Assembly (NCBI RefSeq): GCF_004341885.1
Contig: NZ_SLVX01000006.1
Span: 186,001 to 250,000, forward strand
Origin: Shinella granuli
GTDB taxonomy: Bacteria; Pseudomonadota; Alphaproteobacteria; Rhizobiales; Rhizobiaceae
Length of the DNA: 64,000 nt
Direction of reading: 5' to 3'
Part shown: positions 9,100 to 21,927 of the stretch, in pieces
How the letters are laid out: each line of letters starts with the position of its first letter
Position numbering within the stretch: position 1 is the first letter of the stretch
Translations under genes and position numbers: made by a program
Notes under the pieces: model-generated
What the model saw: only the letters and a program-made list of their open reading frames with translations
What the model was told of the DNA's origin: nothing
Database searches by the model: none

Positions 9100-9909
9100 T
9101 TGCGTATCCGTGTCTCGACCGCAATGACTGCGGCCGCCCTGCTTTTTGCGCCCGTTTCCGCCCGTGCCGGCGAGGGCGGCTATTTCTGGTCCGGCGACTG
9201 GTATCTGAAGGTCGGCGCAGCCGGCTTCGCCGCGCCGCGCTACGAGGGGGCGAAAAAGTACCTGTTCCAGGTCACGCCGATGATCTCGCTCGGCAAGGCG
9301 GGCAGCACCGTCCGCTTCTCCTCGCGCAACGACAACCCGTCCTTCGCGCTGATCGACAATGGCGGCTTTCGCGCCGGCGCGACCGGCAAGCTGGTCATGC
9401 CGCGCGACAAGGACGATTCGAAGGACCTGCGCGGCCTGACGCCGGTGAAGTTCGGCGGCGAGCTCGGCGCCTTTGCCGAAGCCTATCCGACGGACTGGCT
9501 GCGCGTGCGCGGCGAGGTGCGCCACGGCATCCGCAGCCATGACGGCATCGTCGCCGATATCGCGGCGGATGCCTTCGTCGATGTGCGCCCGGACGTGCGC
9601 GTCTCGGCCGGCCCGCGCCTGACGGTCGCCTCGAACGACTACATGGACACCTATTACGGCGTGAAGCCGAACCAGGTCGCCAAGTCCGGCCTTTCCGCCT
9701 ACGATCCCGACGGCGGCATCCACTCGGTCGGCGCGGGTGCGGCGATCACCTGGCAGGTCAACGAGAAGATCGAGACGAGCGCCTTTGCCGAATACAAGCG
9801 CCTCGTCGGCGATGCGGCCAAGTCCAGCCTCGTCAGGCAGCGCGGCGACCGCGACCAGGTGCTGATCGGCCTTTCCGCCACCTACCGGTTCGATTTCACG
9901 CTGCCGTAG
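9100..9909 (+). CDS. MipA/OmpV family outer membrane protein
   Basis: 269 residues: signal peptide ending SARA, then an outer-membrane beta-barrel ending in the aromatic strand YRFDFTLP. The segment WYLKVGAAGFAAPRYEGAKK is typical of the N-terminus of mature MipA/OmpV proteins. The family sits in the outer membrane and is variously tied to murein-synthesis scaffolding or osmotic response; which applies here is unknown. The start is a TTG with GAGG 8 bases before it, and no in-frame ATG would keep the signal peptide. Confidence 0.88.
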   Translation: MRIRVSTAMTAAALLFAPVSARAGEGGYFWSGDWYLKVGAAGFAAPRYEGAKKYLFQVTPMISLGKAGSTVRFSSRNDNPSFALIDNGGFRAGATGKLVMPRDKDDSKDLRGLTPVKFGGELGAFAEAYPTDWLRVRGEVRHGIRSHDGIVADIAADAFVDVRPDVRVSAGPRLTVASNDYMDTYYGVKPNQVAKSGLSAYDPDGGIHSVGAGAAITWQVNEKIETSAFAEYKRLVGDAAKSSLVRQRGDRDQVLIGLSATYRFDFTLP

Positions 9910-18371: not shown

Positions 18372-18992
18372 CTAGAGCGCGCGGATGATCTTGCGCAGCG
18401 CCTCGTCGCGTGCGCCGAGCATCAGCACGTTCTTCATGGCGAGCTTCGGATCGTCGGTGCGGAAGAGCACGCCGTTGCCGCGCACCTTGCGGTCGATCTG
18501 CAGCCGGCCTTCCTCCTCGGCCGGCGTGATGGCGACGGCGAAATACATGCGCCCCGCCTTCTTCGAGATATCGGCGAAGAACTGTTCCTCCTCGCCGATC
18601 TCGGCGAAGAAATTGGCCATGTAGAAGGCCCATTGCACATTCTTGAATTCCGCGAAGCGGGAATTGGCGACGGTGATGTGGCAATAGCCGAGATGCGGCG
18701 TCCGGGCGAGCGTGCGGTGGAAGATCAGCTTGGGAAAGCGGATCGACTGATGGAAGCCGTTGATGCGGTCATGCGTGACATTCCCGGCATTCTCCAGCTT
18801 GCGGCCGGTGCGCTCGGCCACCTCCTGGTAGCTGAGATATCGCTTCTCGCTCGGGCTCCAGCTTGTGTTCCGGTCGATGCGGCCGGTGCGCAGGAACTCG
18901 GTATGGACGGCCGGTTTCGGCTGGTTCGCGCGCTTGTAGGCGACCGCGTCGTAATAACGGAACTTGGTTTGCTGCACGCGCCGGCACTCCAT
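18372..18992 (-). CDS. Uncharacterised conserved-looking protein
   Basis: 206 residues, no signal peptide, mixed alpha/beta, rich in Arg and aromatic residues (FRYYDAVAYKRANQPKPAVHTE, NVQWAFYMANFFAEIGEEEQFF). The closing third, with ITPAEEEGRLQIDRKVRGNGVLFRTDD, looks like an ordered domain. The GTG two codons upstream is an alternative start. It converges with the degenerate GGDEF gene, 16 bases apart. I recognise no family. Good codon usage and length make it very likely real. Confidence 0.7.
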   Translation of the reverse strand: MECRRVQQTKFRYYDAVAYKRANQPKPAVHTEFLRTGRIDRNTSWSPSEKRYLSYQEVAERTGRKLENAGNVTHDRINGFHQSIRFPKLIFHRTLARTPHLGYCHITVANSRFAEFKNVQWAFYMANFFAEIGEEEQFFADISKKAGRMYFAVAITPAEEEGRLQIDRKVRGNGVLFRTDDPKLAMKNVLMLGARDEALRKIIRAL

Positions 18993-19291
18993 CCTCACGC
19001 CCCGATGCGGTGAAGTTTATGGAAACGGCGTTAAACATTCCTTGCCGGGCCGCTCCCTCTTTTTCCGCATGTTTCGGATGGGTCGCAATATGACAATTGT
19101 GTCGGCGCGCCCGCCAGGTTGCCCCTGGCGTGGCTTTGGTGCCTGTTATTTTGGCATAATTGATTGAAATATATGCAGTAACAACCGTGATCATCTTGCC
19201 GGACGTCGTTTGTCTCCTGTCGTCAAATCGGAATGGCATGTCGCTATCTGACATGTCGTTTGCTGAATCTTGCGCTTAGATAAGAACACTC
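18993..19291. other. AT-rich intergenic region upstream of the cobalamin riboswitch
   Basis: About 300 bases, markedly richer in A/T than its surroundings (for example around 19140-19190). It should hold the promoter for the riboswitch transcript. It contains an inverted repeat CATGTC-gctatct-GACATG near 19237-19255 that could be an operator. No convincing sigma-70 hexamer pair and no open frame of interest. Confidence 0.5.
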
Positions 19292-19458
19292 GAGGTGCCG
19301 TTCTGACGAAGAGCGGAGAATTGGGAAGCCGGTTGAAATCCGGCGCTGCCCCCGCAACGGTGGAGGAGAAAAGCGCGGCGAGACGCCACTGGACGGAAAG
19401 GTCCGGGAAGGCGCCGCGATGGTCCGGAAGGACGCTCCTGAGCCCGGAAACCAGCCTT
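19292..19458 (+). promoter_or_regulatory. Cobalamin (adenosylcobalamin-type) riboswitch
   Basis: All core elements are readable in order: GGGAAgccGG then TTGAAATCC, the GCTGCCCCCGCAAC loop (19345-19358), the B12-box GCCACTGG (19384-19391), CCGGGAAGGCGCC and the closing GCCCGGAAACCAGCC (19442-19456). The following 120 bases (19459-19577) are GC-rich and end in an AGGA ribosome site, so the expression platform probably hides translation initiation of the betaine demethylase gene or terminates its transcript. By analogy with other B12 riboswitches, high cobalamin should switch the operon off. Confidence 0.95.
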
Positions 19459-19577
19459 GGGTGTGATCGTGACTGGCTGCGGCGGGCGGCCGGGAAGCGT
19501 GCAGTCCGTGCGCCCCCGCGCCCGGATGCCGTCTCCTTCCGTGCGCCTCATCCCCAATTTGATATCGAGGATCCGGC

Positions 19578-20822
19578 ATGGACATCAGCAGCGACGTGCT
19601 CCGCAAGCTCAAGAACCGGCGCGAGGGCCACAGCCTCGAGCAGGCCTTCTACATCGACCCCGACCATTACAAGCTGGACCTGGAGACGATCTGGTATCGC
19701 GACTGGCTGTTCATCGGCCATGACTGCGAGATCCCGAAGGCCGGCAACTATTTCACCGTGCAGGTCGGCGACTATCCCGTCGTCATCACCCGCGACCGCA
19801 CAGGCACCGTGCGCGCCCTGCACAATTCCTGCCGCCACCGCGGCTCGCGCGTCTGCACGCAGCACCGGGGATCCTCCGCAAAGCTCGTCTGTCCCTATCA
19901 CCAGTGGACCTACGAACTGGACGGCTCGCTGCTCTTCGCCCGTCACATGGCCGAGGATTTCGACAAGAGCCAGCACGGCCTGAAGCGCGTGCACTGCGAG
20001 ACCGTCGGCGGCTATATCTTCATCTGCCTTGCCGACGAGGCGCCGGATTTCTCCGCCTTCCGCGCGCTGGTCGAGCCCTATCTCGCCCGCCACCGCCTCG
20101 GCGAGACGAAGGTCGCCTTCGAAAGCACGATCGTCGAGAAGGGCAACTGGAAGCTCGTCTGGGAGAACAACCGCGAGTGCTACCATTGCGCCGCCAACCA
20201 TCCCGAACTCTGCCGCACCTATCCGGAAGCCCCGAGCGCCACCGGCGTGCAGGGCGCCAAGGACGATCCTGTCATCGCCGCGCACTGGGAAAAATGCGAG
20301 GCGGCGGGCCTGCCGAGCGAATTCCGCATGTCGCCGACCGGCCAGTTCCGCGCCGCGCGCATGCCGCTCATCCAGGAGGCCGAAAGCTACACCATGTCCG
20401 GTGCCCGCGCCGTCCAGCGACCGCTCTCCAACGATGTCCTGGAAAACCATATCGGCACGCTCCTGCTGTTCCACTACCCGACGACGTGGAACCACGTGCT
20501 CGCCGACCACGCCATCACCTTCCGCGTGCTGCCGCTCGGCCCCGAGCTGACGCAGGTCACGACCAAGTGGCTCGTCAACAAGGATGCCGTCGAGGGCGTC
20601 GATTACCGCCTCGACGAGCTTACCCATGTCTGGACCGAAACCAACGACCAGGACCGCCGCATCGTCGAGGAAAACGCCTTCGGCATCCGCTCCCCAGCCT
20701 ACCAGCCCGGCCCCTATTCGCCGGAGGACGAGGGCGGCGTCATGCAGTTCGTCGAATGGTACGCGAATTTCATGATCGACCGGCTCGACGGCGCCAAAAA
20801 GCCGCTCTCGCGGGTGGCCTGA
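19578..20822 (+). CDS. gbcA: Rieske-type quaternary ammonium (glycine/proline betaine) demethylase oxygenase
   Basis: 414 residues. Rieske cluster ligands C85-R-H87 and C105-P-Y-H108; mononuclear iron site E200-C-Y-H203 and H208, with Glu at the bridging position as in other betaine-type oxygenases. The C-terminal WLVNKDAVEGVDYRL and SPAYQPGPYSPE segments are those of GbcA and Stc2, which remove a methyl group from glycine betaine or stachydrine with O2, releasing formaldehyde. Which betaine is used cannot be told. The reductase starts one base after this stop. Control by the upstream B12 riboswitch is the notable feature. Confidence 0.85.
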   Translation: MDISSDVLRKLKNRREGHSLEQAFYIDPDHYKLDLETIWYRDWLFIGHDCEIPKAGNYFTVQVGDYPVVITRDRTGTVRALHNSCRHRGSRVCTQHRGSSAKLVCPYHQWTYELDGSLLFARHMAEDFDKSQHGLKRVHCETVGGYIFICLADEAPDFSAFRALVEPYLARHRLGETKVAFESTIVEKGNWKLVWENNRECYHCAANHPELCRTYPEAPSATGVQGAKDDPVIAAHWEKCEAAGLPSEFRMSPTGQFRAARMPLIQEAESYTMSGARAVQRPLSNDVLENHIGTLLLFHYPTTWNHVLADHAITFRVLPLGPELTQVTTKWLVNKDAVEGVDYRLDELTHVWTETNDQDRRIVEENAFGIRSPAYQPGPYSPEDEGGVMQFVEWYANFMIDRLDGAKKPLSRVA

Positions 20823-20823
20823 C

Positions 20824-21927
20824 ATGACGATCGCCAGCCATTTCCGCCACTTCGACGAGCTTCATCCGTGGAACGACCGCCAGCACATGCTGGAATGCAT
20901 CGCCGCCACGGTGGAGACATCGGATGTGATGACCTTCACCTTCCGCTCCGATCGCGACAACTGGTTCCGCTACCTGCCGGGCCAGTTCGTCACGCTGGAA
21001 CTGCCGGTGTCGGAAGACGAACCCGTCATGCGGACCTATACGCTCTCCTCGACGCCCTCGCGGCCCTTCTCCGTTTCCGTGACGGTGAAGGCGCAGAAGG
21101 GTTCGATCGGCACGCGCTGGATGTTCGACACCCTGCGCCCCGGCATGCGTCTGAAGGCCTTTGGCCCGCTCGGCGACTTCTCCCTCGTGCGCTATCCCGC
21201 CGAAAAGTACCTCTTCATCTCGGCGGGTTCCGGTGTCACGCCGATGATGTCCATGACGCGCTGGATGTCGGATTGCGCGCCGCAGTCCGATGTCGCCTTC
21301 ATCACCTGTGCCCGCAAGCCCGAGGACCTCTTGTTCAAGGCGGAACTCGAATGCCTCGCCGCCCAGATGCCGAACCTTGCGCTCGGCTTCGTCGTCGAGG
21401 GGCACAATCCGCGCGACGGCTGGCATGGCCTGCGTGGCCGGATCGATGCAGCGCGCCTCTCGCTGCTCGCGCCCGATTTCCGCGACCGCACCGTCTTCTG
21501 CTGCGGCCCGGAGCCCTTCATGCGCGGCGTGCGCGACATGCTGAAGGTCTGCGGCTTCAACATGGACCGCTACCACGAGGAGAGCTTCCAGCCGGCCAAT
21601 GCGCCCGCCCCGGAGGCGATCGCCATCCGCGCGGGCGCCGGCGAGCAGGAGATCGATGCCAACGCCGTTTCTACCGTGACCTTCACCATGGCCGGCAAGG
21701 ACGCCCAATGCCCGCCCGGCCAGACGATCCTGCAGACGGCGCGCGCTGCGGGCGTGCGCATCGGCGCGGCCTGCGAGGGTGGCCTTTGCGGCACCTGCCG
21801 GGTCATGAAGGTTTCGGGCGAGGTGGACATGCGCCACAATGGCGGCATCCTCGACGACGAGATCGAGGAGGGCTACATCCTCGCCTGCTGCTCGCGGCCC
21901 ATCGGGGACGTGCAGATCGAGGCGTAG
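20824..21927 (+). CDS. gbcB: Reductase partner of the Rieske demethylase
   Basis: 367 residues: ferredoxin-NADP reductase FAD domain (R70-T-Y-T-L-S-S), NAD domain (GSGVTPMM and CCGPEPFM) and a C-terminal plant-type 2Fe-2S ferredoxin with C317, C322, C325 and C355. It passes electrons from NAD(P)H through FAD and 2Fe-2S to the oxygenase. Start codon one base after the oxygenase stop, so the two are translationally coupled. Named by analogy with GbcB; the family is also called hybrid-cluster reductase in annotation. Confidence 0.85.
   Translation: MTIASHFRHFDELHPWNDRQHMLECIAATVETSDVMTFTFRSDRDNWFRYLPGQFVTLELPVSEDEPVMRTYTLSSTPSRPFSVSVTVKAQKGSIGTRWMFDTLRPGMRLKAFGPLGDFSLVRYPAEKYLFISAGSGVTPMMSMTRWMSDCAPQSDVAFITCARKPEDLLFKAELECLAAQMPNLALGFVVEGHNPRDGWHGLRGRIDAARLSLLAPDFRDRTVFCCGPEPFMRGVRDMLKVCGFNMDRYHEESFQPANAPAPEAIAIRAGAGEQEIDANAVSTVTFTMAGKDAQCPPGQTILQTARAAGVRIGAACEGGLCGTCRVMKVSGEVDMRHNGGILDDEIEEGYILACCSRPIGDVQIEA

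Follow-up and report, generated by a model that had tools for sequence, protein, structure and literature searches.

A cobalamin riboswitch in front of a GbcAB-type Rieske oxygenase operon and its co-occurrence with the corrinoid Mtg system in Alphaproteobacteria

Why should an oxygenase that needs no vitamin B12 be preceded by a cobalamin riboswitch? The question is raised by a stretch of 64,000 nucleotides (nt) of the Shinella granuli genome (contig NZ_SLVX01000006.1, positions 186,001 to 250,000; hereafter the window), in which such a riboswitch stands in front of genes for a two-component Rieske oxygenase resembling the glycine betaine monooxygenase GbcAB. Comparison with related genomes suggests that the oxygenase is a B12-independent stand-in for the corrinoid-dependent betaine methyltransferase (Mtg) system: in both genome sets analyzed here, the full riboswitch was found before gbcA only in genomes that also encode an MttB-type methyltransferase. 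The features of the locus, all on the plus strand, are as follows.

19276..19473, plus strand: cobalamin riboswitch aptamer (RF00174, cmscan), full length, with GCCACTG core, CCCCCGC loop and B12 box
19474..19493, plus strand: downstream hairpin with loop GCGGCGGGC, partly complementary to the CCCCCGC loop of the aptamer
19567..19572, plus strand: likely ribosome-binding site GAGGAT, 5 nt upstream of the start codon, as read from the sequence
19578..20822, plus strand: gbcA-like Rieske oxygenase subunit, 414 amino acids (aa); Pfam domains Rieske (PF00355) and Ring_hydroxyl_A (PF00848)
20824..21927, plus strand: gbcB-like reductase subunit (FAD, NAD, 2Fe-2S), 367 aa; Pfam domains FAD_binding_6, NAD_binding_1 and Fer2

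The riboswitch and the operon

The first-pass annotation had described a complete cobalamin riboswitch, and the covariance model bears this out with a match over its full length (118.5 bits against a gathering score of 31.5, E-value 4.1e-29, model positions 1-189 of 189), the aptamer starting 16 nt before position 19292, where it had been noted. It is the sole Rfam match in the window above a family's gathering score, was recovered in the scan of the whole genome (G000:C6:205276-205473), and ends 104 nt before the start codon of the gbcA-like gene. The gbcB-like gene starts one base past the gbcA stop codon. In the divergent direction from the riboswitch lies a gene for a DUF6656 protein (293 bits; window positions 18372-18998, minus strand); the Sinorhizobium meliloti locus likewise has a divergent hypothetical gene.

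The assignment of the two proteins to the GbcAB/Stc2 type, neither of them requiring B12, agrees with their Pfam domains, among which no corrinoid domain was found in either protein. The oxygenase scores 511.8 bits with the NCBIfam GbcA model NF058607 (equivalog cut-off 670) and the reductase 386.9 bits with the GbcB model NF058606 (cut-off 500). Since both miss the equivalog cut-offs, the label 'GbcA/Stc2-type' is right and a strict 'GbcA' is not established; relatives in betaine-type clusters from Paracoccus (535.3 bits) and Agrobacterium (501 bits) also fall below the GbcA cut-off. The oxygenase is 93-96% identical to its counterparts in seven Shinella genomes. Its nearest solved structures are PDB 3n0q (556.8 bits), 3vca (530.9 bits) and 4qup, the latter two of which we take to be Stc2, the proline-betaine demethylase. 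In a quick tree the window protein lies outside the Stc2-type branch (L172/L175) and thus does not group with Stc2. As judged from its relatives, the likely substrate is glycine betaine, not fixed by the sequence; proline betaine or another quaternary amine is possible. The deposited annotation of PDB 3n0q is that of a putative aromatic-ring hydroxylating dioxygenase; over its 408 residues it shows no visible difference from the riboswitch-linked oxygenase of Ruegeria TM1040 (L170, 2504-3730).

Co-occurrence with the Mtg system

If the oxygenase replaces a corrinoid-dependent betaine methyltransferase, as had been proposed, a methyltransferase of the MttB superfamily and its corrinoid protein should be found in the same genome. 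The 6.6-Mb draft genome of S. granuli (97 contigs) encodes four MttB homologues, one of which (C1:582389-583885) adjoins an MtgC-like corrinoid protein, a DUF1638 protein, a formyltransferase-domain protein, MTHFR, a DUF5981 protein, a pterin-binding (MtgD-type) protein and a RACo/RamA activase. The families PF06253, PF02607 with PF02310, PF00809 and PF14574/PF17651 were all found within this locus (L097). About 9-10 kb past MttB lie genes for a BHMT family protein (MtgE type; 565.7 bits, cut-off 338) and for a proV-type betaine/choline transporter, and about 18 kb past it the cobalamin riboswitch of a cbtA cluster (45.2 bits).

In order to see how far the two traits go together, we sampled genomes evenly from the order (397) and from the class (385). 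Close gbcA homologues (E-value at most 1e-130, a limit of our own choosing) occur in 46 and 10 of them, respectively, which together with S. granuli itself gives 57 genomes. The riboswitch precedes at least one gbcA copy in 31 of the 57. Outside S. granuli, Rfam detects 31 switch-bearing copies (79.7-119.7 bits) in 30 genomes, G230 having two, and no aptamer at the remaining 28 sampled copies. For one of these 28 (L219) just 462 nt of upstream sequence were available; this copy was dropped from copy counts and tree, and its genome, G380, was counted as switch-negative on the basis of those 462 nt without an Rfam match.

All 31 switch-positive genomes encode MttB and 30 of them MtgC, compared with MttB and MtgC in 10 of the 26 switch-negative genomes (Fisher test for MtgC, 1.2e-6); none of the 16 genomes among the 57 that lack both proteins has the switch. 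Counted per copy, S. granuli and L219 excluded, 31 switch-bearing copies lie in Mtg-positive and 0 in Mtg-negative genomes, against 12 and 15 switch-less copies (p 6e-7). The association survives correction for gene descent. Among 13 phylogenetically independent pairs that differ in Mtg, the switch differs in the same way in 9.3 on average, in the opposite way in 0, and not at all in 3.7 (median p 0.004); here the tree is a GbcA gene tree (FastTree) rather than a species tree, and Mtg is a trait of the genome. The co-occurrence to be looked for in relatives is therefore strong, though one-directional, and it contradicts the situation that would have told against the proposal, namely absence of a B12-dependent betaine route from every genome with this arrangement. 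These comparative tests support the demethylase as a candidate stand-in for the corrinoid methyltransferase.

Could the association reflect B12 metabolism in general? A general loss of cobalamin riboswitches in the switch-negative genomes was considered and rejected, as 24 of the 26 retain other cobalamin riboswitches above the cut-off. MetE was rejected as a cause, PF08267 being non-discriminating (6 of 31 switch-positive, 2 of 26 switch-negative genomes). B12 synthesis was likewise rejected, since CobH/CbiC (PF02570) is encoded in 29 of 31 and 23 of 26, respectively (p 0.65). This last comparison bears on the alternative that low B12 induces gbcAB so that carbon and methyl groups from betaine (glycine for 5-aminolevulinate, one-carbon units for S-adenosylmethionine) enter cobalamin synthesis. 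In its favor, CobH/CbiC is encoded in 65 of 71 genomes, and industrial B12 producers are given betaine, which stimulates aerobic B12 production according to the available part of a review (PMC8123684). Nevertheless, B12 synthesis does not track the switch: 14 of the 16 Mtg-less genomes encode CobH/CbiC and have no switch, whereas two switch-bearing genomes have no CobH match (G852, and G284, which is 74% complete). We consider precursor supply very unlikely as the reason for the switch.

Close relatives and decayed switches

Of at least 588 confirmed matches, the best 80 formed a second set, which is hence skewed to close relatives; to judge by record titles, nearly all are Rhizobiaceae, and two metagenome-assembled genomes (L023, L064) are named otherwise than Rhizobiales/Rhizobiaceae. 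Usable upstream DNA was available at 79 of the 80 loci, L058 (41 nt upstream) being dropped from both traits. The switch was called by Rfam at 22 of the 80 loci and at the remainder by three core boxes and a profile hidden Markov model (HMM). The Mtg state was that of the MttB orthologue, which was counted as present in G020 and G060, where it is in pieces, and as absent in G039, which has only a 35% identical homologue; MtgC was checked in 14 of the 80.

The three core boxes occur in the same order at 66 of the 79 orthologous loci, the last box lying 129-214 nt upstream of the start codon. Because of this recurrence, and of the Rfam aptamers at 31 gbcA copies of the samples, the adjacency of riboswitch and gbcA is not due to chance. 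Apart from these 66 full switches there are 4 weak ones (56.3-61.3 bits), and 9 loci have none. All 66 full switches are in genomes with an MttB orthologue. Ten genomes lack the orthologue: in 6 of them the switch is absent, and in the other 4 it is weak and degenerate. The counts for Mtg-positive and Mtg-negative genomes are 66 and 4 with a switch and 3 and 6 without (p 5e-5) or, with the weak switches counted as none, 66 and 0 against 3 and 10 (p 2e-10). Whole-genome scans of 50 genomes of this set gave at least two RF00174 matches in each.

Presence and loss of the switch are thus correlated with Mtg, and several leaders retain traces of the loss. In Rhizobium freirei PRF 81 (L071) and R. 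lusitanum SEMIA 4060 (L073), about 100 nt of the aptamer core are deleted, approximately 100-340 nt upstream of gbcA, and Rfam finds no match in these leaders even at an E-value of 1. Both align with intact sister sequences on either flank, and what remains includes the 5' part and B12 box as well as the hairpin and ribosome site. Their genomes lack MtgC and carry four and five other RF00174 matches, respectively; in R. lusitanum Opo-234 (L048) the switch and MttB are both present. In the weak clade (L043, L044, L045, L061), the GCCACTG and GGGAAGG core is broken and the rest is kept. All these leaders look like the result of decay after loss of the Mtg partner, an order of events that we infer.

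Two further matches were noted in this set. In the Rhizobium tropici PTD1 record (L050), the HMM picks up another riboswitch-like stretch (27.5 bits) on the minus strand, about 2.0-2.1 kb upstream of gbcA, and L085 has, at 9625-9703, a sub-threshold match to the small RNA RcsR1 (25.1 bits, gathering score 60) that may be due to chance.

Conservation of the leader RNA

Directly downstream of the aptamer lies a hairpin which we take to be the kissing-loop hairpin of the P13 type. Its loop motif GCGGNGGG is present in 93 of 103 switch-bearing leaders. Among 46 distinct versions of the stem, pairs 1-3 are standard in 98, 89 and 98%, exceeding the maxima of shuffled sequences (91, 85 and 87%), whereas the fourth pair (91%) is within its shuffles and the outer two (59 and 61%) are unsupported. 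The regulatory hairpin expected of cobalamin riboswitches is found here: the inner stem pairs covary and the loop is predicted to pair, in part, with CCCCCGC. It might still be supposed that the riboswitch was captured by chance and hitch-hikes neutrally, with no effect on gbcAB. Conservation of the aptamer core and hairpin, with a covarying stem, in Rhizobiaceae and outward to relatives that share 48-60% GbcA identity makes this extremely improbable, as does the fact that presence of the switch follows a second trait, Mtg; a chance or non-functional riboswitch was rejected on the grounds of conservation and covariation.

As to the level of control, no terminator-like site was found on the plus strand between aptamer and gene, so control is more likely translational. 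A promoter scan found none.

Gene neighborhoods

In two genomes (L236, L237) about 620 nt separate gbcAB from the divergent cluster mtgC-DUF1638-...-mtgD-ramA, and the switch lies in this interval, directed at gbcAB. In L238 the switch and gbcAB face a dimethylglycine-oxidase-like gene (DAO and GCV_T domains) and an MttB homologue on the opposite strand. The gbcA genes of the Ensifer loci L025 and L027 carry the switch. It was also found before gbcA in 5 of 14 scanned named plasmid records (S. meliloti, Phaeobacter, Gemmobacter, Ruegeria TM1040 and Cereibacter), and not in the scanned records of Paracoccus (two), Agrobacterium, Salipiger, Ponticoccus, Pseudosulfitobacter and Roseivivax or of the Stc2-type copies of S. 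fredii and S. medicae. Both main branches of the family include copies with the switch: the Stc2-type branch (with PDB 3n0q, Phaeobacter and Gemmobacter) and that of the window protein.

Occurrence of the switch in both branches, the missed equivalog cut-offs and the four MttB homologues in the genome would suit a different explanation, in which the oxygenase and MtgB act on different quaternary amines, the switch belongs to the general answer of the cell to B12 shortage, and its correlation with Mtg arises indirectly from a shared betaine-rich lifestyle. The divergent gbcAB/mtgC pairs with the switch between them, together with covariation in independent lineages, argue rather for one process, and so does a relative in Paracoccus with 70% identity to the window protein, which lies in a cluster with fdhA, ETF, FolD and a BCCT transporter. 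We regard different substrates as rather unlikely, though the strongest of the alternatives. These alternatives overlap one another and in part the preferred explanation, and the likelihoods given to them do not sum to one.

The B12 regulon of S. granuli

Seven cobalamin riboswitches were found in the genome, including that of gbcAB. The other six stand before metE, nrdI-nrdE, a transporter (substrate-binding protein and FecCD), bluB, the cbtA-cobW cluster, and a short open reading frame (ORF) with metH. Targets were assigned by position and protein reading; MetE, NrdE, CbtA and MetH are confirmed by family, BluB at the level of a nitroreductase-family protein and the transporter at that of a siderophore-type binding protein. 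The top-scoring riboswitch of the genome (130.4 bits; C11:162702-162918, L092 10702-10918, minus strand) faces a 91-aa ORF with no family match, followed by metH. As MetH is the B12-dependent methionine synthase, its repression by B12 would be odd; control of the short ORF, an ON switch or read-through are possibilities. Second riboswitches also occur near gbcA elsewhere: a divergent one before a TonB-dependent receptor and ribonucleotide reductase in L239 and L241, and one on the metH side in L240.

The proximity of metH touches on another proposal, namely that B12 shortage stalls MetH and traps methyl-folate, and that GbcAB, without replacing betaine catabolism, supplies one-carbon units at the formaldehyde level that aid MetE and folate balance. 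The presence of metE and nrd genes in the same regulon suits this. So does the position of metH: a metH-like ORF is found no more than 5 kb from gbcA in 6 of the 31 switch-positive genomes and in none of the 26 switch-negative ones (p 0.027); metH was judged here by long ORFs with a corrinoid domain, tested for family in S. granuli only, and draft contigs or genomes with no listed MetH were counted as not near. Nonetheless, MetH alone does not keep the switch, because all 26 Mtg-less genomes (16 sampled, 10 close relatives) have a MetH-type match and none has a full switch. Relief of the methyl-folate trap is accordingly highly improbable as the role of the operon.

Proposed mechanism

We consider it quite probable that GbcAB is a B12-independent stand-in for the Mtg route, following the same logic as metE and nrdAB/nrdEF, with the distinction that the reaction is catabolic and yields a different methyl product. 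When cobalamin is plentiful, it would bind the leader RNA and keep translation of gbcAB low, and betaine methyl groups would take the corrinoid route from MtgB to MtgC-cobalamin, MtgD and tetrahydrofolate. When cobalamin is scarce, the corrinoid route would fail and the leader would open; GbcAB would then use O2 and NAD(P)H to take off the methyl group as formaldehyde. Repression by B12, its translational level and the shared substrate are the parts of this scheme that we infer. The stand-in function explains why the full switch is found only with the Mtg system, why leaders without Mtg look decayed, and why gbcAB and mtgC are adjacent in some genomes. As with B12-independent isozymes, the B12-dependent counterpart is encoded and both traits covary, in one direction and with Mtg-positive exceptions that have no switch.

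Several observations weigh against the stand-in function. Among the sampled copies, 12 Mtg-positive ones lack the switch (10 wholly switch-less genomes and second copies in G334 and G457). Because of these and of L065, L068 and L085, which have an MttB orthologue and no switch, the coupling is not obligatory. The stand-in function leaves Mtg-positive genomes with a switch-less gbcA unexplained; the copies in G334 and G457 are second paralogues, and the rest may be under other regulators. Conversely, the weak aptamers of L043, L044, L045 and L061 still score above the gathering threshold in genomes without Mtg. G470, 64% complete, has the switch and MttB and no MtgC match, and was counted as Mtg-positive on MttB alone. 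In S. granuli itself the best NCBIfam match of the corrinoid protein is the MtgC model NF047996, at 211.2 bits against a cut-off of 370, and MttB matches only a trimethylamine model, at 287.4 bits under a cut-off of 525; MtgB and GbcA may act on different betaines. Finally, leader folding gives no support to an expression platform (z 0.04), and evidence that the ribosome-binding site is sequestered is weak both in the RNA duplex test (mean z -0.33, 109 leaders) and in the longest-complement test with the ribosome site (mean 6.46 against 5.91 in shuffled sequences, 93 non-independent leaders).

Implications

Near plants and algae, betaines are of major importance both as osmolytes and as sources of carbon. 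If the stand-in function is correct, the short list of B12-independent stand-ins gains a catabolic enzyme, and B12 supply is predicted to decide the fate of betaine methyl groups, methionine or formaldehyde. With less assurance we lean to a general form of this statement for Alphaproteobacteria, from soil rhizobia to marine roseobacters: B12, acting through RNA, would direct betaine methyl groups through MtgBCDE to methyl-folate and methionine or, in its absence, through GbcAB and O2 to formaldehyde. To our knowledge, this would be the first cobalamin-riboswitch pair with a catabolic oxygenase as the stand-in. The same reading offers a possible function for PDB 3n0q, the Ruegeria TM1040 gene of which is preceded by the switch, and could also matter where Ensifer is fed betaine for B12 fermentation.

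A paper of 2025 described an aerobic bacterium that demethylates betaine by a corrinoid-type route (PMC12478193). It notes that earlier work on S. meliloti led to the conclusion that a distinct second betaine route must exist, and assigns that route to the Mtg system; the B12-switched oxygenase is a further candidate for it.

Comparison with known systems

In S. meliloti Ak57 (L162), RF00174 precedes the orthologous gene at 100.3 bits. That this gbcA is SMc00982 rests on the listed orientation and the gene order in L162, the numbering down to mcpU being our assumption. The first-pass annotation knew of no description of the linkage. This does not stand for the RNA itself, which two S. meliloti papers of 2007-2008 list before SMc00982 (PMC2245857, PMC2573895); the raw annotation was already known and the linkage as such is thus not new. 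What does stand is that the portions of these papers available to us give no interpretation, and no link of the riboswitch to betaine demethylation was found among the open-access matches listed. A later study describes SMc00982, in the section available, as 'likely encoding a dioxygenase' under sugar catabolism, and reports its down-regulation in an hfq mutant, as for a likely glycine betaine uptake gene (PMC2848018).

The GbcAB glycine betaine monooxygenase of Pseudomonas and Chromohalobacter, as mentioned in the accessible text of PMC12478193, has the same two-component Rieske oxygenase and reductase domains, whereas the pair in the window scores below the NCBIfam equivalog cut-offs and has an RNA switch in front. 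With Stc2 the relation is through 3vca, one of the nearest solved relatives; no riboswitch stands before L175, the S. medicae copy with the closest match to 3vca (912.3 bits).

Mutants of Ruegeria pomeroyi have shown that glycine-betaine demethylation depends on MtgC and MtgD in that species, whose need for cobalamin in this process was deduced from homology and proteomics; the accessible text also places MtgBCDE beside a cobalamin synthesis operon in S. meliloti (PMC12478193). S. granuli encodes a set matching the R. pomeroyi MtgBCDE and split methionine synthase described there, with the MtgE-type BHMT protein and the proV-type gene. In that text GbcAB is assigned to other bacteria, whereas in S. 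granuli both routes coexist; it mentions no cobalamin riboswitch, the word 'riboswitch' occurring once, for glycine, in a reference title.

The closest parallel in regulation is provided by enzymes that replace B12-dependent ones. The genes metE and nrdAB are examples of B12-independent isozymes under cobalamin riboswitches. 'Isozymes of B12-dependent enzymes' form a category of riboswitch targets in PMC3766115, in whose main text, as far as accessible, the words oxygenase, dioxygenase and betaine are absent. As with the isozymes described there, the RNA of S. granuli precedes a corrinoid-free enzyme whose B12-dependent counterpart is encoded in the same genome. In contrast to them, the target here is a catabolic, O2-dependent demethylase, and the methyl product would be formaldehyde and not methyl-folate.

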